Translations under genes and position numbers: made by a program
Assembly: GCA_905234665.1 (NCBI GenBank)
Contig: CAJOIV010000006.1
Span: 1-64,000 of the forward strand
Direction: 5' to 3'
Length of the DNA: 64,000 nucleotides
From: an uncultured Bacteroidales bacterium
GTDB lineage: Bacteria; Bacteroidota; Bacteroidia; Bacteroidales; P3
Shown: positions 39,095 to 64,000 of the stretch, in pieces
Layout of the letters: each line of letters opens with the position of its first letter
Numbering within the stretch: position 1 is the stretch's first letter
The notes under the pieces: model-generated
Seen by the model: the letters and a program-made list of their open reading frames with translations, nothing else
The model's database searches: none
What the model was told of the DNA's origin: nothing

Positions 39095-40438
39095 ATGAAT
39101 ATCATCATTGCAGGCGACGGCGAGGTGGGCTTCTATCTGGCTAAGTCTCTGACAGATTTGAACCATAATATCACGGTGGTGGACCCCAACTCCGAGTTGC
39201 TGAAGCGGCTGGAGTCGGAGAACGACTTGCTCACTATCGTTGGCTCCTCTATGTCGCCACAGGTGCTGGCGGATGCCAATGTGAGTGACTGCGACCTTTT
39301 TCTGGCGGTCTTGCATGACGAGAGCGTCAATTTGATGTCTTGTGTGCTGGCCAAGAAGTTGAAGGCGAAGAAGACCGTGGCGCGTATCACGAATGCCGAG
39401 CTTCTCACCCCCAAGCACCGAGATATGTTCCGCGACCTCGGTGTCGATGAGATGGTCTGTCCCGAGCGCATCGCTGCCAAGGAGATCACCAATCTCCTCA
39501 ATAATTCCGTGGCTACCGAGTTTTTCGACTTTTCGGGAGGGCTTCTGACCATGTATCTTATCCGTCTGGAGCCCGACTCGCCTGTCGTGCAGCACAGCGT
39601 CCAGGAGCTTACCCAGCTCTATACCAAGCTTGAGGCGCGCATCGTGGCTATCCTGCGCAACGGCATGACGGTCATTCCCCATGCCGACACAATCCTCCAG
39701 CAGGGCGACCTGGTCTATATCATCAGTCGGCCCAACCAGGTGGAGAGCATCAAACAGGCCACGGGCAACAGCCAGCAAGCCGAGGTAAAGAAGGTGATGA
39801 TTGTCGGTGCAGGCCGTGTGGGCCGTTATGCCGCCATGACCCTTGAGGACCGCATGCGCATCACCCTTTTCGAGGAGTCCCGTACCCGTTGTGAGGAGGT
39901 GGCGTCCCTGCTCAAGAACACCCTCATCATCAATGGCGATGCCACCGACATAGAGCTCCTCAAAGACGAAGGGCTCCAGAATATGGACGCTTTTATCGCC
40001 GTCACCAACTCGTCGGAGACCAACGTGCTCTCCTGTCTCCATGCCAAGCGGCTGGGAGTTCGGCGCACCATCGCCCTGGTGGAGAACACGGGCTTCATCA
40101 GCATCTCTCAGGATATCGGCATCGATACCATCATCAACAAGAAACTCATCACCGCCAGTTACATCTCGCGCTTCATCGTCAAAGGCGATGCCGTGCGCAG
40201 CAAATGGCTCAGCGGCACCAATGCCGAGCTCATGGAATTCAGTGTCGGCAAGTGGGCTCCTGCCACGCGTAAGCCTATCCGAGATCTTGATCTGCCGCAG
40301 GGTTCGACCATTGGTGGCATTATCCGAGGCCAGCAGACCCTCTTCCCGACACGCGACACCGAAATCAAGGCCAAGGACAGGGTTGTCGTCTTCGCCCTGC
40401 CCAAAGTGATGGAGCAGGTGGCGCGTTTGTTTAGTTGA
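39095..40438 (+). CDS. trkA: Trk potassium uptake regulatory subunit TrkA
   Basis: A 447-residue cytosolic NAD(H)-binding gating protein for TrkH channels. It has the duplicated RCK layout: first Rossmann domain MNIIIAGDGEVGFYLAKSL, a first RCK-C domain (residues 135-220), second Rossmann domain KKVMIVGAGRVGRYAAMTL from about 230, and a second RCK-C domain ending QGSTIGGIIRGQQTLFPTRDTEI. The length is that of the four-domain TrkA. Its stop codon merges into a 7-base repeat array that separates it from trkH. Confidence 0.95.
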   Translation: MNIIIAGDGEVGFYLAKSLTDLNHNITVVDPNSELLKRLESENDLLTIVGSSMSPQVLADANVSDCDLFLAVLHDESVNLMSCVLAKKLKAKKTVARITNAELLTPKHRDMFRDLGVDEMVCPERIAAKEITNLLNNSVATEFFDFSGGLLTMYLIRLEPDSPVVQHSVQELTQLYTKLEARIVAILRNGMTVIPHADTILQQGDLVYIISRPNQVESIKQATGNSQQAEVKKVMIVGAGRVGRYAAMTLEDRMRITLFEESRTRCEEVASLLKNTLIINGDATDIELLKDEGLQNMDAFIAVTNSSETNVLSCLHAKRLGVRRTIALVENTGFISISQDIGIDTIINKKLITASYISRFIVKGDAVRSKWLSGTNAELMEFSVGKWAPATRKPIRDLDLPQGSTIGGIIRGQQTLFPTRDTEIKAKDRVVVFALPKVMEQVARLFS

Positions 40439-40464
40439 GAATTGAAAATTGAGAATTGAAAATT
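40436..40464. repeat. 7-base repeat array at the trkA-trkH junction
   Basis: Alternating units GAGAATT and GAAAATT occur four times, beginning within the trkA stop codon and ending 13 bases before the trkH ATG. Closely similar arrays occur at 58788-58820, and a related AATTAGG/AATGAGG type lies inside two genes (54697 and 61096). Confidence 0.8.
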
Positions 40465-40477
40465 GGCTGGCGCGGGG

Positions 40478-46730: not shown

Positions 46731-46911
46731 GACACACTCCTCCGCCCCTTTGGGGCACCTCCCCTAACTTAGGGGAGGAGTGGCTGGCTCCACTATCGGT
46801 CGCCGAACTACGGTTGCCGCAGTCATTAGCAGTGTCAGAAGCAAGTTGCATTCTTGGCTGCTCCCCTAAGTTAGGGGAGCTGTCAGCTTTGCTGACTGAG
46901 GAGTGTGTTCT
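46731..46911. repeat. MITE-like element with inverted ends and two palindromes
   Basis: The 187-base gap between rlmH and the PHP gene is almost filled by an element whose ends are inverted copies: GACACACTCCTC at the left and GAGGAGTGTGTTC at the right. Each end carries a palindrome of the CTCCCCTAA/TTAGGGGAG type (46758-46778 and 46861-46879), and the left one has an additional GCCCCTTTGGGGC hairpin. A near-copy of the left end, inverted, is at 60728-60777. No transposase gene is present. The palindromes may also terminate transcription from both sides. Confidence 0.75.
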
Positions 46912-53808: not shown

Positions 53809-53866
53809 CAACTTTTTCCCGACATGGAAAGAAAAAAATCCCACCACCCCCTGAGCTGTCTGTACA

Positions 53867-53968
53867 CTTATATTACAGTTATATTGTAGTTATATTATAG
53901 TTATACGTAGACTCATGGTATAACTATAGTATAACTACAATATAACTATGGTATAACTATAATATAAG
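53867..53968. repeat. Inverted array of 11-base AT-rich units
   Basis: The right arm is GTATAACTATA, GTATAACTACA, ATATAACTATG, GTATAACTATA, ATATAAG; the left arm is its inverse (CTTATAT, TACAGTTATAT, TGTAGTTATAT, TATAGTTATAC) around an 11-base centre. The arms match for about 30 bases with one mismatch and the right arm has one extra unit. It lies in the divergent gap between btuB and the M16 protease gene, 53589-54057. Nothing else in that gap but the riboswitch and its promoter is recognised. Confidence 0.85.
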
Positions 53969-54057: not shown

Positions 54058-55395
54058 ATGGTGGAATATTCGCGACATACACTGCCCAACGGGCTGCGGG
54101 TCCTGCTGCACAGGGATGCGACGACTCCGCTGGTGACGGTCAATATGCTGTACCAGGCGGGGTCGCGCGACGAGCGTCCCGACCGCACGGGCTTTGCCCA
54201 CCTCTTCGAGCATCTGATGTTAGGCGGCACACGCCGTCACCCCGACTTCGACGCCGAGCTGGACGCCTTGGCGGGCGAGAGCAACGCCTTCACCACGGCC
54301 GACTACACCAACTACTACATGACCCTTCCCGCCGACGGGCTGGAGCAGGCGCTGGCGCTGGAGGCCGACCGCATGACGGGCGACTGGGCCATCGAGGGCG
54401 AGCACTGGCGGGTGCTGGATGTGCAGAAGAAGGTGGTGACGGAGGAGTATCACCAGCGCTATATGAACCAGCCCTATGGCGACGACTGGCTGCTGCTGCG
54501 CCCCCTGTGCTACAAAGTGCACCCCTACCGATGGTGCACCATCGGGGCCGACATACGCCATGTGCAGGAGTCGACGCTGGCCGACGTGAGGGATTTCTTT
54601 GCCCGCTACTACCGGCCGGACAACGCCATCCTCTGCGTGGCGGGGAACCTCGACGAGGAGGAGACGCTACGCATGGTGGAGAGGGAGTTTGGTGCAGTAA
54701 TTAGGAATGAGGAATTAGGAATCAGGAATGGGGCGCGGCGCTATCCCGCCGAGCCGGAGCAAAAGGAGGCGAGGCTGCTGGAGGTGCGGCGCGATGTGCC
54801 CAACGCGGCGTTCTACATGGCATGGGTGATGTGCGACCGCTACACCCCTGACTTTTATGCCTACGACACGCTGAGCGACGTGCTGGCATCGGGTCATTCG
54901 AGCCGGCTGTACCGCCGCATGGTGCAGGACGAAGGGCTCCTGACGGAGGTCAACGCCTTCATCACCGGCGACCTGGGTCCGGGACTGTTCGTTGTCAACG
55001 GCAAGCTGCGGCCCGGGGTGGACTATGCCGCCGCCTCGGCGGCGGTGCGTGACGAGCTGGACCGCCTGGCGGCCGAGCCGCTGCCCGATCGGGAGCTGGA
55101 GAAGGTGGCCAACAGGTTCGAGAACACCTTCGTCTATTCGCAATACAAGGCCTCGGACAGGGCCTACAGCCTCTGCTACTATGAGATGGCGGGCGACGTG
55201 GAGCTCGCCAACCGCGAGCCGGAACGCTACCGTGCCCTGCGGGCGGCGGACCTGCAACGGGTGGCGGCGGCATTGACCCCGCAGCGGTGCAACACGCTGA
55301 GGGTGACCCCCTCGGACGGCACACCCGTCGCTCCTGCGGGCGACAGCCCTGACGCAGGGGTGGCACAAGAACCGAAAATGGAAACTGATATATGA
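54058..55395 (+). CDS. M16-family zinc metalloprotease (pitrilysin type), with an in-frame repeat
   Basis: A 445-residue peptidase. The inverted zinc motif HxxEH is HLFEH at 48-52 in GFAHLFEHLMLGG, and the third ligand is expected in the downstream EYHQRYMN-containing helix. It has the two M16 halves: TLPADGLEQALALEADRM and then ALYxAW-like FYMAWVMCDRYTPDFYAYDTLSDVLASGHSSRLYRRMVQDE. No signal peptide, so it is likely cytosolic. Codons 213-225 are formed by a 7-base repeat array (IRNEELGIRN). The start at 54058 is chosen from homologous text; upstream in-frame ATGs exist at 54010 and 54040. It overlaps the next gene by ATGA. Confidence 0.88.
   Translation: MVEYSRHTLPNGLRVLLHRDATTPLVTVNMLYQAGSRDERPDRTGFAHLFEHLMLGGTRRHPDFDAELDALAGESNAFTTADYTNYYMTLPADGLEQALALEADRMTGDWAIEGEHWRVLDVQKKVVTEEYHQRYMNQPYGDDWLLLRPLCYKVHPYRWCTIGADIRHVQESTLADVRDFFARYYRPDNAILCVAGNLDEEETLRMVEREFGAVIRNEELGIRNGARRYPAEPEQKEARLLEVRRDVPNAAFYMAWVMCDRYTPDFYAYDTLSDVLASGHSSRLYRRMVQDEGLLTEVNAFITGDLGPGLFVVNGKLRPGVDYAAASAAVRDELDRLAAEPLPDRELEKVANRFENTFVYSQYKASDRAYSLCYYEMAGDVELANREPERYRALRAADLQRVAAALTPQRCNTLRVTPSDGTPVAPAGDSPDAGVAQEPKMETDI
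54697..54731. repeat. Intragenic 7-base repeat array in the M16 gene
   Basis: Units AATTAGG, AATGAGG, AATTAGG, AATCAGG and AATGGGG follow in tandem (35 bases) and are read in frame. Each unit is not a multiple of three, so gain or loss of one would shift the frame. Confidence 0.8.
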
Positions 55396-56408: not shown

Positions 56409-58787
56409 ATGATAAAAAGGACAATACTGCTGCTGTTGCTTGCCGCTTTCGGGGCGGGGGCGATGGCGCAGCACACCATCAGCGGCACGGTGACGGACGC
56501 CCAGACCGGCGAGACACTCATCGGGGCGACGGTCTACGACACCGTCAGCCGCAAAGGCACCACCACCAACCAGCACGGCCGCTACAGCCTGACGCTGAAA
56601 AACGAGAATGCCGTGGTGCGAGTCTCCTTCGTGGGGTACGAGACCCAGTTCTTTGCCCTCACCCTCAAGGCCGACCACCGCATGGACGTGCAGCTGAAGA
56701 GCTCCTACACCCTCCGCGAGGTGGTCATCAAAGGCGAGCGCATCCAGCATCTGGAGAGTTCGCAGCCCAGTGTCGTGGAGGTGCCCGTGGAGCAGGTGAA
56801 GGCCATCCCGATGCTCTTTGGCGAGACCGACGTGGTGAAGGCCGTGCAGCTGCTGCCGGGCGTGCAGAACGGCTCGGAAGGCACGGCGGGCATGTATGTG
56901 CGCGGCGGCGGTCCCGACGAGAACCTCTTCCTGCTGGACGGCGTGCCGATGTACAACGTGAACCATCTGGGCGGCTTCTTCTCGGCCTTCAATTCGGACG
57001 CCGTCAAGAACATCAACCTCTACAAAGGTTCCTTCCCCGCGCGCTTCGGCAGCCGCCTGTCGAGCGTGCTCGACATCACCACCAACAACGGCAACGACAA
57101 GGAATACCACGGCGGTGTGGGCATAGGCCTCATCTCGGCCAAGGTGAACGTGGAGGGGCCCATCATCAAAGAGAAGACCACCTTCAGCTTCTCGGGTCGC
57201 CGCACCTACGGCGACATCCTGCTGCAGCCCCTCCTCGCCAATATCGCCGCCGCCGAGGGGTCGAACTCCAAAATCAACGCGGGCTACTATTTCTACGACC
57301 TCAACGCCAAGGTGACGCACCGCTTCAGCGACCGCAGCCGCCTCTACGCCAGCTACTACATGGGCGACGACGCCCTCTATGCCCGCATCAAGGTCATGGA
57401 CGGCTACGACTTCCAGGAGTACATGAAACTCAGCTACCGCTGGGGCAACATCGTGGGCAGCGTGCGCTGGAACTACGAGCTGACTCCCAAGCTGTTCCTC
57501 AACCTCAGCGGCGCCTACACCCGCTACCGCAGCAAGCTGTCCATCGGCATGGATTACGAGGACAAGCAGGATCAGCTGACAGAGAGCCTGGAGGCGGGAT
57601 TCCGCTCGGGCATCCGCGACTATCTGGCCTGTGCCGACTTTGACTGGGCGCCCGCGCCCGACCATTCCGCCAAATTCGGCACCCACTACACTTTTCACTA
57701 CTTCACCCCTGAGACCCAGAGCGTCCACATGAAAGAAAACGAGGAGACCTTCGACACCGTCATCGGGCAGAACACCGTGGGCGCCCACGAGATAATGCTC
57801 TATGCCGAGGACGACTGGCGGATCAATGACATCTTCAAGGTGAACCTGGGCCTCAACGTGACGGGCTTCTCCGTGCAGGGGAAATTCTACCCCAGCCTGC
57901 AGCCGCGCGTCAGTGGCCGCTGGTTGGTGAACGACCGCCTGTCGGTGAAGGCGGGATACGCCCGCATGACGCAATACCTTCATCTGCTGAGCACCAGCAC
58001 CATCTCGCTGCCCACCGACCTGTGGGTGCCCGTCACGGCACACATCACCCCCATGACCTCCAACCAGGTGGCCCTGGGCGTGTTCTACAACCTGATGGAC
58101 TCCCTCAACCTGTCGGTGGAAGGATACTACAAGAATATGGACAACCTGTTGGAATACAAGGACGGCGCCTCCTTCTGGGGCAGCTCGGCGGGCTGGGAGC
58201 AGAAGGTCTGCATGGGCCGAGGCTGGGCCTACGGCATCGAGTTCCTGGCGCAGAAGACCGTCGGCAGGTGGACCGGCTGGGTGGGATACACCTGGAGCCA
58301 CACCGACCGCGTCTTCGACCGCCCGGGGATGACGCTGAACGACGGCAAACCCTTCCCCGCCAAATACGACCGCCGACACGACATCAGCATCGTGCTGACC
58401 TACAAGTTCAACGAGCGCTTCGACGCCAGCCTGACGTGGGTGTATGCCACCGGCAACGCCGCCACCCTGGCGCTGCAGCAGTTCGACCCCGAGGTCGAAC
58501 CCGCAGAGGGGTCGGAATACTACTATTATTACCAGTCCAGCGCCGACTATGTGTCGTCGCGCAACAACTACCGCATGCCCGCCTACCACCGCATGGACAT
58601 CAGCCTCAACTGGCACAAGGACTTGCGCTTCGGCAAGGGAACCATCAACGTGAGTGTCTACAACCTCTATAACCGCCAGAACCCCTACATGCTCTACACC
58701 GAGACCACCTACTCCGGCAACCGAAGCCTCAACCAGCTGTCGCTCTTCCCCTTCCTGCCCTCGGTGAGTTACATCTGGACGTTCTGA
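56409..58787 (+). CDS. TonB-dependent receptor with N-terminal carboxypeptidase-regulatory-like domain
   Basis: A 792-residue outer-membrane receptor. Signal peptide MIKRTILLLLLAAFGAGAMAQ, then a CarboxypepD_reg domain (HTISGTVTDAQTGETLIGATVYD, residues 22-44) and a plug domain (VVKAVQLLPGVQNGSEGTAGMYVRGGGPDENLFLLDGVPMYN). The barrel runs to the end (VSYIWTF). The partner downstream is a DUF4249 lipoprotein, a pairing seen widely in Bacteroidetes and thought to be a non-SusD uptake or sensing pair. The ligand is not known. It does not show the SusC signature. Confidence 0.92.
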   Translation: MIKRTILLLLLAAFGAGAMAQHTISGTVTDAQTGETLIGATVYDTVSRKGTTTNQHGRYSLTLKNENAVVRVSFVGYETQFFALTLKADHRMDVQLKSSYTLREVVIKGERIQHLESSQPSVVEVPVEQVKAIPMLFGETDVVKAVQLLPGVQNGSEGTAGMYVRGGGPDENLFLLDGVPMYNVNHLGGFFSAFNSDAVKNINLYKGSFPARFGSRLSSVLDITTNNGNDKEYHGGVGIGLISAKVNVEGPIIKEKTTFSFSGRRTYGDILLQPLLANIAAAEGSNSKINAGYYFYDLNAKVTHRFSDRSRLYASYYMGDDALYARIKVMDGYDFQEYMKLSYRWGNIVGSVRWNYELTPKLFLNLSGAYTRYRSKLSIGMDYEDKQDQLTESLEAGFRSGIRDYLACADFDWAPAPDHSAKFGTHYTFHYFTPETQSVHMKENEETFDTVIGQNTVGAHEIMLYAEDDWRINDIFKVNLGLNVTGFSVQGKFYPSLQPRVSGRWLVNDRLSVKAGYARMTQYLHLLSTSTISLPTDLWVPVTAHITPMTSNQVALGVFYNLMDSLNLSVEGYYKNMDNLLEYKDGASFWGSSAGWEQKVCMGRGWAYGIEFLAQKTVGRWTGWVGYTWSHTDRVFDRPGMTLNDGKPFPAKYDRRHDISIVLTYKFNERFDASLTWVYATGNAATLALQQFDPEVEPAEGSEYYYYYQSSADYVSSRNNYRMPAYHRMDISLNWHKDLRFGKGTINVSVYNLYNRQNPYMLYTETTYSGNRSLNQLSLFPFLPSVSYIWTF

Positions 58788-58820
58788 TAATTGACAATTG
58801 AGAATTGAAAATTGAGAATT
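58788..58820. repeat. 7-base repeat array at the TonB receptor-DUF4249 junction
   Basis: Units TAATTGA, CAATTGA, GAATTGA, AAATTGA and GAATTAT run from just after the receptor stop to the ATG of the next gene. It is closely related to the array at 40436-40464. Confidence 0.8.
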
Positions 58821-59801
58821 ATGAAACACCCCTTTCCCTTCTTGGTTCTTACCTCTTACCTCTTACTTCACTTCTCCGCCTGCACGAAGCAGATTGAGTT
58901 TGACGGCGACGAGACTGACCCGATTCCCGTCATGGTGTCGTATGTGGAGGCCGACAGCGCCTTCCATGTCAAGATGTCCCTCAGCCGTTTCTTCCTCAGC
59001 GGGGGCAACTTCAAGTATGTCAACGATGCCTCCTTCCGCGCCGAAGTCAACGGCATCGCCTCCGGCATGACGTTCCAACGGGTAGGGGAGGGCTACTATC
59101 TCTCCGACATGTCGCTGCGTGCCGGCGACACGATGACGCTGCATGTGTCGGTGCCGGGGCATGGCGATGTCACCGCCGGCTGCCGGCTGCCCGAAGTGCC
59201 CGTGGTGACGGACGTGAAGGCCACGCCGAAATACTCCATCGATTCCGAATACTGGGACGACCCATACTACCGCTATCCTTCCTATATGTACTTCGATGTG
59301 GACTTCAGCTTTGTGCTGCACGAGCCCGCTACGCGGGGCAACTATTACATGCTGAAGGCGTTTGTTGTCGACAGCGCGACAGGGCAGAGAGAACCGCTGG
59401 TGCTGCAGATTGACGACGACGTCATCTACGATGTCGATGTTTCGGGCGAGGTGATTGACTTGGAGTCGGGGACGGATTACTCCTACGGTTGGCAGGTGCT
59501 CTTTACCGATGAACGCATTGGCGGCCAGCGTCATACCATAAAGGGCTCTATCCAGTCTGTCTCACTTGGGTCGACAGCCACCATCGAGCTGCAGGTTTGC
59601 GGCGTGAGTCGCGATACCTACCTTTATATGGCCACCCTCAGGGCCCAGCAGAATTCTGGCGACGGCATCACCTTCATCGAGGAGCCGGTGCAGATACACA
59701 CCAACGTCGAGGGCGGTATCGGCATCCTCGGCGCCGTCAGTTCCAAGCACGAAGAACTCGTCACTATCTCCGTCCAACCCTTTGATTACGACGAGAAATG
59801 A
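58821..59801 (+). CDS. DUF4249 lipoprotein
   Basis: A 326-residue exported lipoprotein. The signal peptide ends in FSAC (Cys21). The body shows the DUF4249 pattern: PIPVMVSYVEADSAFHVKMSLSRFFLSGG, LRAGDTMTLHVSVPGHGDVTAGCRLPEVPVV and the later IELQVCGVSRDTYLYMATL. DUF4249 proteins are encoded next to CarboxypepD_reg-type TonB receptors and probably sit on the cell surface with them. The ATG is preceded directly by the 7-base array, and the stop overlaps the next ATG (ATGA). Confidence 0.87.
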   Translation: MKHPFPFLVLTSYLLLHFSACTKQIEFDGDETDPIPVMVSYVEADSAFHVKMSLSRFFLSGGNFKYVNDASFRAEVNGIASGMTFQRVGEGYYLSDMSLRAGDTMTLHVSVPGHGDVTAGCRLPEVPVVTDVKATPKYSIDSEYWDDPYYRYPSYMYFDVDFSFVLHEPATRGNYYMLKAFVVDSATGQREPLVLQIDDDVIYDVDVSGEVIDLESGTDYSYGWQVLFTDERIGGQRHTIKGSIQSVSLGSTATIELQVCGVSRDTYLYMATLRAQQNSGDGITFIEEPVQIHTNVEGGIGILGAVSSKHEELVTISVQPFDYDEK

Positions 59802-60787
59802 GAATACTGGTAACCGACAAGACGCACCCCGTGCTGCCCGACATGCTGCGGGCGGCCGGACACGAGGTGACCGTGGATACCTCTCTGGACTACGACAGCC
59901 TGCTGGCCCGCGTGGGCGACTATGACGCCCTGGTGGTGCGCAGCAAGATAATTATCGACCGCAACTTCCTCGACCAAGCCCGTCATTTGAAGTGCATTGG
60001 CCGCGTGGGTGCCGGCATGGAGACCATCGACGTGGACTATGCCGAAAGCCTCGGCATCCGCTGTCTCAACTCGCCCGAAGGCAACCGCGACGCCGTGGGA
60101 GAGCATGCCGTGGGACTCCTGCTGGCATTGTTCGACCATATCGCCCGTGCCGACGCCGAGGTGCGGCAGGGCCTCTGGCAGCGCGAGGCGAACCGCGGGC
60201 TGGAGGTGAAGGGCAAGACCGTGGGCGTCATAGGCTTCGGCAACATGGGACGCGCATTCGCCCAACGACTGCGGGGGTTCGAGTGCACGGTGGTGGCCTA
60301 CGACAAGTACAAGCCCGCAGGCTACGCCCCGGAATGGGTCGAGGAGGTCACGCTGGACGAGCTGCAGCGTCGCGCCGACGTGGTGAGCCTGCATGTGCCT
60401 CTCACCGACGAGACGCACTACATGGTGGACGCCGCCTTCCTGCACGCCTTCGCAAAAGACATCTTCCTCATCAACACCGCCCGGGGCCCCGTGGTGAAGA
60501 CCGGCGACCTGGTGGCAGCATTGGAGGAGGGCAAAGTGCAGGGCGCGGCCCTCGACGTGCTGGAGTACGAGGATATGAGCAAGGACGGCCTGCAGGAATC
60601 CCTGGCCGAGCGGCTGACGTCGCTGCTGTCGCAGCGCGTGGTGCTGACGCCCCATGTGGCGGGCTGGACGGTGGAGTCGAAAGAGAAACTGGCCCGCGTA
60701 CTGGCGGAGAAAATAATAAGTGTAACTAACTCCTCCCCTAAGTTAGGGGAGGTGCCCAAAGGGCGGAGGAGTGTGTCAATATGTTAA
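59798..60787 (+). CDS. D-3-phosphoglycerate dehydrogenase-like enzyme, C-terminus encoded by a repeat
   Basis: A 329-residue NAD-dependent 2-hydroxyacid dehydrogenase: GYDALVVRSK-type start, RVGAGMETIDVDYAESLGI, Rossmann motif GFGNMG in VGVIGFGNMGRAFAQRL, catalytic Arg in INTARGPVVK, Glu in DVLEYED and His in LTPHVAGWT. It lacks the ACT domain. Residues 312-329 (SSPKLGEVPKGRRSVSIC) are the translation of a dispersed repeat at 60728-60777; the family fold ends before it. The substrate may be 3-phosphoglycerate, but other hydroxyacids fit. The end overlaps the DUF3109 start. Confidence 0.88.
   Translation: MRILVTDKTHPVLPDMLRAAGHEVTVDTSLDYDSLLARVGDYDALVVRSKIIIDRNFLDQARHLKCIGRVGAGMETIDVDYAESLGIRCLNSPEGNRDAVGEHAVGLLLALFDHIARADAEVRQGLWQREANRGLEVKGKTVGVIGFGNMGRAFAQRLRGFECTVVAYDKYKPAGYAPEWVEEVTLDELQRRADVVSLHVPLTDETHYMVDAAFLHAFAKDIFLINTARGPVVKTGDLVAALEEGKVQGAALDVLEYEDMSKDGLQESLAERLTSLLSQRVVLTPHVAGWTVESKEKLARVLAEKIISVTNSSPKLGEVPKGRRSVSIC
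60728..60777. repeat. Dispersed palindromic repeat (inverted copy of the left end of 46731-46911)
   Basis: The 50 bases match the inverted left end of the element at 46731-46783 almost base for base: an ACTCCTCCCC start, the CTCCCCTAA/TTAGGGGAG palindrome, GGTGCCCAAAGGGC and the end GGAGGAGTGTGTC. It covers the last codons of the dehydrogenase. Its GGAGGAG lies about ten bases before the DUF3109 ATG, where it could act as a Shine-Dalgarno site. Confidence 0.85.
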
Positions 60788-61413
60788 TAGTCAAAGATTG
60801 TATCGTCTCCGACCATCTGGCCGACCTCTGCTTTGCCTGCGACCTAGCGAAGTGCAAGGGGCGTTGCTGTGTGGAGGGCGACAGCGGCGCGCCGCTGCTG
60901 GAGAGCGAGGTGGCGGAGATGGAGAAGGCATTGCCCTCGGTGCTGCCCTACATGACTGAGAAAGGCCGCGAGGCCGTGAGGCTGCAGGGTGTCGCCGTGC
61001 GTGACAAGGACGGCGACCTCGGCACCCCGCTGGTCGACGGCAAGGAGTGCGCCTTCACCGTCTGGGCAGACGACGGCACGGCCCTCTGTGCTATAGAATT
61101 AGGAATGAGAAATGAGAAATTAGGAATGACCGCGGGAGCCAATTCCTCATCCCTAATTCCTAATTCCTCATTCATCAAGCCCGTCTCCTGCCACCTGTAT
61201 CCGGTGCGGGTGGAGGAATACGGCGAGTTCACGGCCGTCAACTACCACGAGTGGGATGTGTGCCGCTGCGCCGTGGCCAAGGACAACCCCAACCGCAAGC
61301 CCCTCTACGAGTATCTGAGAGAGCCTCTCGTCCGCCGCTTCGGACAGGAGTGGTACGACGAACTGGTGGCCGAAGTGGATAGAATGAAGAAAGATTCAAG
61401 AGCCAAGAAATAA
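60781..61413 (+). CDS. DUF3109 family protein (cysteine-rich), with in-frame repeat insertion
   Basis: A 210-residue cytosolic protein with the DUF3109 pattern: FACDLAKCKGRCCVEGDSGAPL near 19-40, GKECAFTVWADDGTALCAI, KPVSCHLYPVRVEEYG and DVCRCAV, which suggest a metal or Fe-S site. Between ALCAIE and KPVSCHLYP about 26 residues (positions 106-132) come from a 7-base repeat with two inverted arms; in homologues as I remember them this stretch is about a dozen unrelated residues. The frame is kept. Function unknown; the start is overlapped by the dehydrogenase stop. Confidence 0.86.
   Translation: MLIVKDCIVSDHLADLCFACDLAKCKGRCCVEGDSGAPLLESEVAEMEKALPSVLPYMTEKGREAVRLQGVAVRDKDGDLGTPLVDGKECAFTVWADDGTALCAIELGMRNEKLGMTAGANSSSLIPNSSFIKPVSCHLYPVRVEEYGEFTAVNYHEWDVCRCAVAKDNPNRKPLYEYLREPLVRRFGQEWYDELVAEVDRMKKDSRAKK
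61096..61174. repeat. Intragenic inverted 7-base repeat in the DUF3109 gene
   Basis: The left arm 61096-61129 has units AATTAGG, AATGAGA, AATGAGA, AATTAGG, AATGACC; the right arm 61141-61174 has AATTCCT, CATCCCT, AATTCCT, AATTCCT, CATTCAT. The arms are inverted with an 11-base GC-rich centre, so the mRNA can fold into a long hairpin within the coding region. Confidence 0.85.
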
Positions 61414-62141: not shown

Positions 62142-64000
62142 ATGGGAAAGACTGCTGAGAACGACTCGCCGTTGATGCGGCAGCATGCCGAACTGAAGAG
62201 GAGGTACCCCGACGCGGTGCTGCTGTTCCGCGTGGGCGACTTCTACGAGACCTTCGGCGAAGATGCCCGTCGCGCCTCGGCCATCCTCGGCCTGACGCTG
62301 ACGCGCAAGGCCAGCGGGGGTGGCGGATACACCGACCTGGCAGGCATTCCCCACCATGCCATCGACCAGTATCTCCCGCGGCTTGTGCGGGCAGGGCTGC
62401 GCGTGGCCATCTGCGAGCAACTGGAAGACCCCAAGACCGTGAAGGGCCTCGTGAAACGCGGCATCACCGAGCTGGTGACGCCGGGCGTCTCCTACACCGA
62501 CACGACGCTGGAGGTGAAGGAGAACAACTTCCTCTGCGGCCTCCACCTGACGGACAAGGTGCACGGCATCTCGTTCCTCGACATCTCCACGGGCGAGTTC
62601 TGCCTATATCGACAAACTGATGCAGAACTTCCACCCCGCCGAGGTGGTGCTGCAGCGAGGCAAGCTGCACTGGTTCCAGGATCATTTCCCCGAGAAGTAC
62701 TATACCAACACCTTCGACGACTGGGTGTTCACCTCGGACTATGCCCACGAGCTGCTGCTGAAACAGTTCGGCACGGCCTCGTTGAAGGGCTTCGGCGTAG
62801 AGGACCTGACGATGGGCATCGTGGCCGCCGGCGCGGTGCTGCAATATCTGCAGGACACCCAGCACGACCGTACCCAGCATATCTGCAAAATCAACCGCAT
62901 CGACGAGTCGCGCTATGTGTGGCTCGACAAGTTCACCGCCCGCAACCTGGAGCTAGTACACTCGCCCAACGAGCGTGCCCGCACCTTGCTCGATGTCCTG
63001 GACCAGACCTCCACCCCCATGGGGTCGCGCCTCCTGCGCCGCTGGATAGTGATGCCGCTGAAGGACCCCCAGGCCATCGAGGAGAGGCTGAAGGTGGTGG
63101 ATTACCTGGTGCGCAACCGCGATTTCGCCATCCAGCTGCTCCAGCAGATACGGGCCATCGGCGACCTGGAGCGCCTCATCTCGAAGGTGGCCGTCGGACG
63201 CATCAACCCCCGTGAACTGCTTCAGCTGCGCCGTGCGCTGGAGGCTGTGGGGAAGATACAGGCGCTATGCCAGTCCACGGGTGAAGAGACCTGGACGCGC
63301 ATCATGGGGCGGCTGAACGCCTGTAAGGAAATCAGCGACCGCATCGGGCGCGAGATACAGGAAGACCCGCCCGTCAAGGTGGAGAAGGGCAGTGTGATAG
63401 CCCCCGGCGTGAATGCCGAGCTGGACGAGCTGCGCGGCATGGCGGGGTCGGGAAAGGAATACCTCATGCGTCTCCAACAGCGCGAGGTGGAACTGACAGG
63501 CATCAGCTCGCTGAAGGTGGGCTACAACAATATCTTCGGCTACTATCTGGAGGTCACCAACACCCACAAGGACAAGGTGCCGGAGACCTGGATACGCAAG
63601 CAGACCCTGACCAACGCCGAGCGTTATATCACCCCCGAATTGAAAGAGTACGAGGCTAAAATCCTCGGTGCCGAGGAACGCATCCTGGCCCTTGAGGCCC
63701 AACTGTACGAGCAGCTGCTCTCGGCATTGATGAACTATGTGGAGCCCATCCAGTACGATGCCCAGATTGTGGCACAGACGGACTGCCTCCAGAGTTTCGC
63801 CGAGGTCTCGTTGGCCAACAACTACTGCCGTCCCGAATTGGGCGACGACCGCATTATCGATATCAGGGAAGGCCGTCACCCCGTCATCGAGACGCAGCTG
63901 CCGCTGGGCGAGCAGTATATCAGCAACGATGTGCTGCTGGATCCCGATAGTCAGCAGATTATCATCATCACCGGTCCCAACATGTCGGGTAAGTCGGCCC
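62142..64000 (+). pseudogene. mutS: DNA mismatch repair protein MutS, apparent frameshift and cut by window edge
   Basis: The gene starts [39 protein letters not shown], with the mismatch-binding F-x-E motif (FYETF), and reads normally to [11 protein letters not shown] (about residue 153, position 62600). There the frame breaks. The correct continuation ([20 protein letters not shown]) is in the +1 frame from 62602, and it stays open to the right edge through the core, lever and clamp domains to the Walker A GPNMSGKS at 63973. Compared with remembered Bacteroides MutS, about seven codons are missing at the break, so a deletion of about 20 bases fits. A sequencing or assembly error could look the same. 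Out-of-frame text from 62601 to 63215 is not real protein. Confidence 0.85.

Follow-up and report, generated by a model that had tools for sequence, protein, structure and literature searches.

Tandem repeats of seven-base units are over-represented in many bacteria and were still little studied in 2015 (PMC4692102). Repeats of TAACTGA have been described in Beggiatoaceae, Cyanobacteria and some Bacteroidetes (PMC4679880), and repeats of GGGAATC in Xanthomonas and Nostoc (PMC4692102). In the accessible sections of both papers such repeats are mainly intergenic, although mention is made of intragenic ones and of a set within a putative purC gene (PMC4679880, PMC4692102). A second kind of repeat is translated: palindromic DNA occurs in frame in unrelated protein genes of Rickettsia and Wolbachia (PMC10969869, PMC6649704, PMC4224334), and the accessible text on the Rickettsia elements (RPE) describes families whose members measure about 150 bp and share a conserved peptide (PMC10969869). 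Perfect coding palindromes, with up to 142 bp per arm, are also reported from the mitochondria of Nematomorpha (PMC6649704).

The window analysed here is a stretch of 64,000 nucleotides from an uncultured Bacteroidales bacterium, in which an inverted repeat of 7-base units is read in frame within a DUF3109 gene. As far as the accessible sections describe them, dispersed heptameric tandem repeats (PMC4679880, PMC4692102) are the closest described sequence kind to the arrays of this genome. Both consist of 7-base units dispersed over the genome, often lie near starts or stops and occasionally form inverted pairs, and both may be mostly intergenic; the traits of STRR-like heptameric repeats, namely 7-nt tandem units in many dispersed copies with periods 4-6 unenriched, are found here as well. 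Unlike the published repeats in those sections, however, many of the arrays sampled here lie in conserved genes, several heptamer sequences, or dialects, are present per genome, and the same loop carries different dialects in different species. With RPE and the corresponding Wolbachia elements (WPE), as partly accessible, the genome shares in-frame palindromes in unrelated genes whose frames are left open, namely the four mirrored copies of its RAATKAG family (in DUF3109, RNase R, DUF819 and CoaBC genes). In contrast to RPE families of about 150 bp, in which sequence and peptide are conserved, the mirrored form here is about 80 bp, the RAATKAG family is mostly unmirrored, and the arm sequence varies by species at one place. 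RPE and WPE are set apart from heptamer arrays by their descriptions, so far as accessible.

REP/BIME elements are short dispersed palindromes that occur with RAYT (Y1) transposases. A 19-bp palindrome of the window's own genome, CTCCCCTAASTTAGGGGAG, looks REP-like, whereas the heptamer arrays do not follow Y1_Tnp and show no co-occurrence with Y1 genes of the kind expected of REP sequences mobilised by RAYT. The Nematomorpha palindromes resemble the arrays in being inverted repeats translated in genes and gained or lost between species; heptamer units, unlike here, are not mentioned in the accessible text of PMC6649704. In the literature covered, mostly openly accessible papers, neither heptamer arrays nor palindromes that are coding were found described as a class in Bacteroidota; this holds for numerous heptamer arrays, some of them mirrored, in conserved genes with dialects differing at one loop.

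An in-frame inverted repeat in a DUF3109 gene

A first-pass annotation of the window had reported an inverted repeat of 7-base units translated between conserved blocks of the DUF3109 protein, and the repeat itself proved real, spanning about 61096-61177 (Table 1). The best pairing of 34-nt arms reaches 26/34 positions, whereas the highest value among 60 first-order shuffles of the DUF3109 gene was 22/34. The layout first proposed, two 34-base arms around an 11-base centre, pairs at only 8/34 positions and had to be replaced, as the real arms lie in heptamer registers: the main pairing joins 61096-61121 with 61141-61166 (26 nt, 85%, 19-nt gap), and another register joins 61106-61127 with 61156-61177 (22 nt, 86%). 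The repeat (79 nt) has a G+C content of 41%, versus 51% for the window, and its RNA fold has a z of -3.43, equal stability being reached in 2/200 shuffles. By eye, the centre GACCGCGGGAGCC is like the palindrome GGCTGACGCGTCAGCC, yet it gives no match at ≤4 mismatches; the palindrome itself is intact in the HtpG gene of a relative.

Table 1. Features of the window discussed in the text
Feature	Position	Strand	Remarks
DUF3109 (PF11307) gene, 210 aa, insert carrier	60781..61413	+	open frame; Pfam 4.3e-62, residues 1-195
First arm, purine-rich, four and a half RAATKAG heptamers	61096..61127	+	read ELGMRNEKLGM
GC-rich centre GACCGCGGGAGCC	61128..61140	no strand	
Second arm, pyrimidine-rich, heptamers on opposite strand	61141..61177	-	read NSSSLIPNSSFI
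Second coding heptamer array, VIRNEELGIRN	54699..54729	+	in M16 peptidase gene 54145-55395
AATTGAR-type array	40435..40465	+	called gene 39095-40438 ends inside array
AATTGAR-type array	58785..58820	+	at 3' end of called gene 56463-58787

The placement in frame was also upheld. The frame is open across the repeat (translation ELGMRNEKLGMTAGANSSSLIPNSSFI), the stop-free frame is the one used, and in an alignment of 56 sequences an invariant C103 precedes the insert while K133-P134 and C137, likewise invariant, follow it. The claim that about 26 residues are added is accurate as an encoded length (27 residues between CAI and KP) and fails as a net gain, which amounts to 15 residues over the 12-residue loop common elsewhere and to 10 over the 17 residues of a close relative, P0006. 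In the AlphaFold model of the protein, the first arm extends a helix to residue 113, and residues 116-130 of the insert have a pLDDT below 50 against a model mean of 84, as would be expected of a tolerated insertion. That the repeat works like a protein-coding palindromic element is supported, because other coding copies exist, the stop-free frame is used and the insert is a low-confidence stretch of the model; the other copies include three more mirrored ones of the same family, in the RNase R, DUF819 and CoaBC genes. The likeness to Rickettsia elements suggested at first thus stands for this behaviour and falls for family membership, on the grounds of size, conserved peptide and mostly unmirrored copies.

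Heptamer arrays in the genome and the genus

A query of 111 bases around the DUF3109 repeat gave 69 matches in the own genome, several of them both strands of one place. The 438 kb of DNA picked around matches to this repeat family, a sample biased for that reason and read with home-made array thresholds and gene calls, yielded 79 period-7 array calls, one of which was a masked N run, leaving 78. Periods 5, 6 and 10 had one call each (the N run), and one first-order shuffle gave one call at nearly all periods; the 47 and 16 calls at periods 14 and 21 are at multiples of 7. In 160 kb picked irrespective of matches there were 16 arrays at period 7, none at 4-6, three at 8 and two at 11. A weaker excess was seen in the 438-kb sample at period 8 (20 arrays) and period 11 (16 arrays), and two period-11 arrays occupy 53863-53948 of the window, just past a cobalamin riboswitch (Rfam RF00174, 53616-53808, - strand) that was all an Rfam search of the window returned.

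Several heptamer families coexist in the sampled genome: RAATKAG (F1), AATTGAR (F2), RAGTTGA, GAACTAA-like, TTTTTAG and GGTTAT-like. F1 arrays are in their majority single, with no partner arm, and vary in unit number. Mirrored F1 copies number four, that of DUF3109 and three at C6:92-104 kb, and all four are intragenic; two more mirrored pairs belong to the GGTTAT-like family (L063, L304), the L063 pair being intergenic. Arrays also occur at gene boundaries. Several, such as the two AATTGAR-type arrays of Table 1 and one at L056 3542-3577, start within a few bases of a gene's 3' end, so that their first unit contains or adjoins the stop codon; ten F2 arrays are of this kind. A start codon marks the end of four F1 arrays, an arrangement comparable to the TAACTGA repeats near start codons noted in the accessible part of PMC4679880.

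The arrays are abundant in the genus, a group of uncultured gut bacteria, and mostly of period 7, with several dialects per genome. The comparison covered 41 genomes (25 of the genus, 16 of other families), with 20-80 kb per genome sampled for period 7. Period-7 arrays were present in 10 of the 13 other genus genomes sampled, at 5-55 per 100 kb, and absent from 160 kb sampled from five other families. In G009, G015 and G016 no such array was found in 20-40 kb, and pattern searches there gave 10, 38 and 1 matches. Triplets of RAATKAG occur in 8/25 genus and 2/16 other-family genomes (one match each of the latter), with 119 in the own genome; triplets of AATTGAR occur in 19/25 and 1/16 (two matches), with 157 in the own genome. 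The backward control returned 0 or 1 for RAATKAG and up to 17 for AATTGAR, so that the AATTGAR counts are not clean in the genomes where it is high, namely G023 (17, versus 22 matches), G007 (13), G008 (11) and G014 (7).

Arrays inside genes and the reading frame

With a simple codon-usage gene caller, 28/88 arrays of the 438-kb sample are internal to called genes, 20 in number, of which 18 carry Pfam domains and two (L014, L060) none. The carriers, named by Pfam and in some cases also by solved structures, are DUF3109, M16 peptidase, S41 peptidase, TruA, RNase R, DUF819, CoaBC, SDH_alpha, GH2, KdtA (two arrays), PAP2, Dus, RapZ-like, BatA (three arrays), MnmE, a Por-tail protein, a GltD-like oxidoreductase and a GH94 protein. 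In the window together with own stretches picked without regard to matches, 3/20 arrays are internal while 77% of the DNA is called coding, and arrays are therefore under-represented in genes there. Other genus samples had 22/55 internal arrays, a count that includes stretch L318, which holds a DUF3109 locus already known for its array, and a called gene (L286 14985-16301) that looks spurious by eye. Coding arrays elsewhere in the genus, several mirrored by eye, occur in HtpG and MutS2 of G007, TsaD of G001, a PAD_porph protein of G012 and a 2-hydroxyacid dehydrogenase of G127.

Some of these arrays are in frame in conserved genes, where they fall in loops, in a linker or in a helical segment; their predicted translation products are protein segments that are either additional or replace the original ones. 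The MnmE segment aligns with 3gee without a gap, within the MnmE_helical match, and the TruA segment has two residues more than 1dj0. The CoaBC segment is located between its two domains by comparison with solved structures, the RNase R segment lies at the start of the OB_RNB match, and the structural alignment of KdtA picks up directly after the second array.

Three 7-nt units encode a seven-residue repeat. On the purine strand of F1, TTAG and TGAG units place stops in different frames, and mixed arrays can keep one frame open. An open frame was present in 14/14 F1 arrays marked internal and sense versus 17/32 others, 47% being expected with random T/G; the former result is partly true by construction, the internal labels were assigned by hand, and the 32 also count one antisense coding array and some of the arms that belong to coding inverted repeats. 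Arrays of AATTGAR and RAGTTGA, which have a stop in every unit, are internal in antisense only (8/8). This frame pattern matches what a survivorship filter predicts, partly by definition.

Different dialects at one place in relatives

The DUF3109 loop was excised from 139/151 loci, many of them from the same genomes, giving 109 distinct loop DNAs; 12 loci yielded none, and four distinct loops (L076, L041, L047, L185) were cut too long. Cleanly parsed loops outside the genus have 12 residues, whereas within it there are 12-residue loops, a 4-residue group and longer ones. The loop DNA of L168, from Candidatus Colimorpha merdihippi, is identical to that of L028, from G020 of the window's genus. 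Strong 7-periodicity, at 17-19/21 positions versus ≤13 elsewhere in the same genes, marks six distinct loops in two dialects: the window's own, and five 19-residue loops (G001, G004, G083, G095, G127) built from AATTTTC/AACTTTC heptamers, not RAATKAG. Long loops with no strong periodicity are those of G010 (9/21), G069 (7/21), G050 (14) and G111. The G111 loop (L121) has 33 residues of another sequence ending in FGCSGANSLLVKYHYI, and is perhaps another class of coding repeat.

Among the best 120 of 3876 protein matches, the insert is kept in P0002-P0005 (96-88% identical), of which P0002 (96%) may belong to the window's own protein cluster. P0006 lacks the insert and has EKAWREARPATPDTPF in its place, yet is identical at 104/105 positions upstream of the loop and 55/60 downstream, the upstream value for the insert-bearing P0003 being lower (91/105). 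Between P0001 and P0003, 1/27 insert residues differ, while the proteins are 89% identical overall. Further heptad-like loop peptides, known from protein alone among the same best 120 of 3876 matches, are NSQFSILNSQF, FTFHLSPFTF and KIQNSEF. On a DUF3109 tree of 125 rows with the loop removed, a quick single-gene tree with 22/122 inner branches at 95% support and arrays labelled by peptide, array presence requires at least 10 changes; the treekit group table is compatible with a single origin of the array, and the tree omits the long-array carrier P0062, whose KPLSC did not match the excision pattern. The F1 inserts fall into two groups, each adjoining insert-less rows, which implies repeated loss, two gains or recombinational exchange.

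The CoaBC linker, parsed in 24/26 loci (L244 and L246 left out), behaves likewise: in six genus genomes 15-19/21 positions are periodic, with a dialect differing by species. The own genome scores 19, with a mirrored F1 array. Three genomes score 18, namely G006 (AATTGAR-like units, mirrored), G001 (AAAATTC-like units, mirrored by eye) and G015 (AATTCCG units); G007 scores 17 with CTCTCC-like units and G002 scores 15 with AAGGTGA-like units. G004 has 14, the remaining 17 parsed loci ≤11 and any flank ≤12. At the DUF3109 loop and the CoaBC linker, different species thus carry different dialects, and many others carry none.

For the RNase R turn, 15/25 loci were parsed, the ten left out including the array-bearing L331 (an earlier parse had left out 8/25 and mis-cut L342). 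The own genome has a mirrored F1 insert of 27 residues there (18/21), while 13/15 parsed loci have 5-7 residues and G012 has 13 with no periodicity. The mirrored insert in RNase R of G001 is far longer and consists of GGGAGTGA-like units, whose length appears to be 8-10 nt, not 7. The MnmE array is found in the own genome only, and the relatives that parsed are of equal length, as would be expected if the segment had been overwritten or had converged, and not if it had been inserted.

Candidate movers and the centre motif

Y1/RAYT enzymes were rejected as the source of the arrays, since the presence of Y1_Tnp does not follow array load over the 41 genomes. The own genome has two Y1_Tnp genes; G014 (97% complete) has none, yet it shows the highest sampled array density, and G006, G008, G017 and G019 (72-88% complete) have 111, 78, 20 and 64 AATTGAR matches with no Y1_Tnp. 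No array-associated transposase was found in the search of the 41 genomes for Y1_Tnp. Reverse-transcribed repeats, DRT- or telomerase-like, were the idea behind a search of the own genome (about 90% complete) for PF00078 (RVT_1), which gave no match, and this source was set aside too.

A universal centre motif was likewise considered. In the own genome, four GGCTGACGCGTCAGCC-like sites at ≤4 mismatches lie beside arrays, against a mean of 0.2 and a maximum of 2 for shuffled palindromes (n=100); the genus gave three at ≤4 mismatches (control mean 0.19, maximum 2) and two at ≤3 (mean 0.01, maximum 1). At 5 mismatches the five genus sites are within the control maximum of 6, at 3 mismatches no own-genome site lies beside an array, and the 49 own sites genome-wide at 4 mismatches compare with 43 in controls, which is no enrichment. 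The motif, enriched at some centres, was not taken as a defining feature because its copies are few and the enrichment is absent at some thresholds.

Where neighbouring arrays are of unlike strand composition, the purine-rich one comes first in 8/8 pairs (3 own, 5 genus). This is the one count that bears on arm order, because the companion pairs of the centre comparison had been turned purine-rich first beforehand; in that set of eight turned pairs, two (L015 and L061) combine unlike heptamers, and of the four mirrored F1 copies of the own genome three fall below the threshold.

Origin and meaning of the arrays

We consider it probable that the DUF3109 insert belongs, as a coding copy, to a repeat population of 7-nt period that extends over the genome, spread by copying between arrays and then filtered by frame and fold. 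The insert is a mirrored array made of a purine-rich arm, a GC-rich centre and a pyrimidine-rich arm. Lineage-specific arrays would spread, and be gained, lost or rewritten, by recombination- or replication-coupled copying between arrays, presumably with no dedicated transposase that could be found; selection would remove most genic insertions, and the survivors would be those that are in frame, stop-free and at fold-tolerant places. Copying by recombination or replication is favoured because array load does not follow Y1 transposases and no RVT_1 was found in the own genome. A bolder version, tentative and on balance rather unlikely, is that the arrays are copied, and rewritten in place to the current dialect of the species, by a dedicated process that is indifferent to sequence and advances in fixed steps of 7 nt, leading to DNA-driven concerted evolution of protein loops, core genes included.

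The always purine-rich-first order of unlike-strand neighbours (none in reverse), the excess of GGCTGACGCGTCAGCC-like sites beside arrays over shuffled palindromes at 4 mismatches and the two Y1_Tnp genes of the own genome would suit a mobile palindrome of Rickettsia or MITE type that depends on a trans-acting transposase, such as a REP-associated Y1 enzyme, with single arrays as decayed remnants. We judge this improbable: F1 arrays mostly lack a partner arm, GGCTGACGCGTCAGCC is not enriched genome-wide and its excess beside arrays is gone at 3 (own) and 5 (genus) mismatches, Y1_Tnp is missing from the array-rich G014 and from G006, G008, G017 and G019, which have AATTGAR matches though they are 72-88% complete, and differing dialects occupy one loop. 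Ordinary replication slippage from a local AT-rich seed, with selection purging frame-breaking arrays, could account for the varying unit numbers and the many heptamer sequences; it would not lead one to expect the preference for period 7 over 4, 5 and 6, the recurrence of a few heptamers at numerous sites within a single genome or mirrored arms, and 7-nt steps break the frame in genes, so we give it little credence.

A similarly small chance is given to inserts selected for a functional heptad peptide or mRNA hairpin, serving as linker, helix or translation control. The seven-residue repeat encoded by three units, the gap-free alignment of the MnmE array peptide with 3gee, the near identity of the P0001 and P0003 inserts in proteins that are 89% identical and the stable RNA hairpin agree with it, whereas the same loop is empty, short or otherwise filled in close relatives and is partly modelled at low confidence. 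An assembly artefact or a pseudogene, both raised by the first-pass annotation, is very improbable. The genomes are metagenome-assembled and an adjacent mutS-like frame is broken; even so, the insert recurs in P0003-P0005, which come from other contigs and are 88-89% identical, the frame is open with conserved residues resuming downstream of the insert, and the same pattern appears across many genes and genomes. The mutS gene (by eye) is split over two frames, with ORFs at 62142-63215 and from 62620 onward and a change near 62600; the split (window 62142-63999) is a frameshift either in the assembly or in the organism.

If copying between arrays followed by such a filter is correct, repeat DNA is accepted into core enzymes (RNase R, CoaBC, MnmE, TsaD, HtpG) often enough to give species-specific loop repeats. 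The genus would then offer a natural experiment in the tolerance of loops to insertion and in the turning of non-coding repeats into protein, and its related genomes could serve for dating the origin of heptameric repeats and for reading their junctions. For annotation, segments such as NSQFSIL and IRNEELG are to be expected.

A second dispersed palindrome

The REP-like 19-bp palindrome CTCCCCTAASTTAGGGGAG occurs in the window at 46759-46777, 46861-46879 and 60733-60751. At ≤1 mismatch it has 135 copies in the own genome; five relatives have 1-8, and the search of the other 35 genomes gave none. Words of this palindrome are over-represented close to heptamer arrays. The C-terminus of a 2-hydroxyacid dehydrogenase gene (59798-60787) runs into the copy at 60733, and inspection by eye places further coding copies in the BatA and L014 genes.
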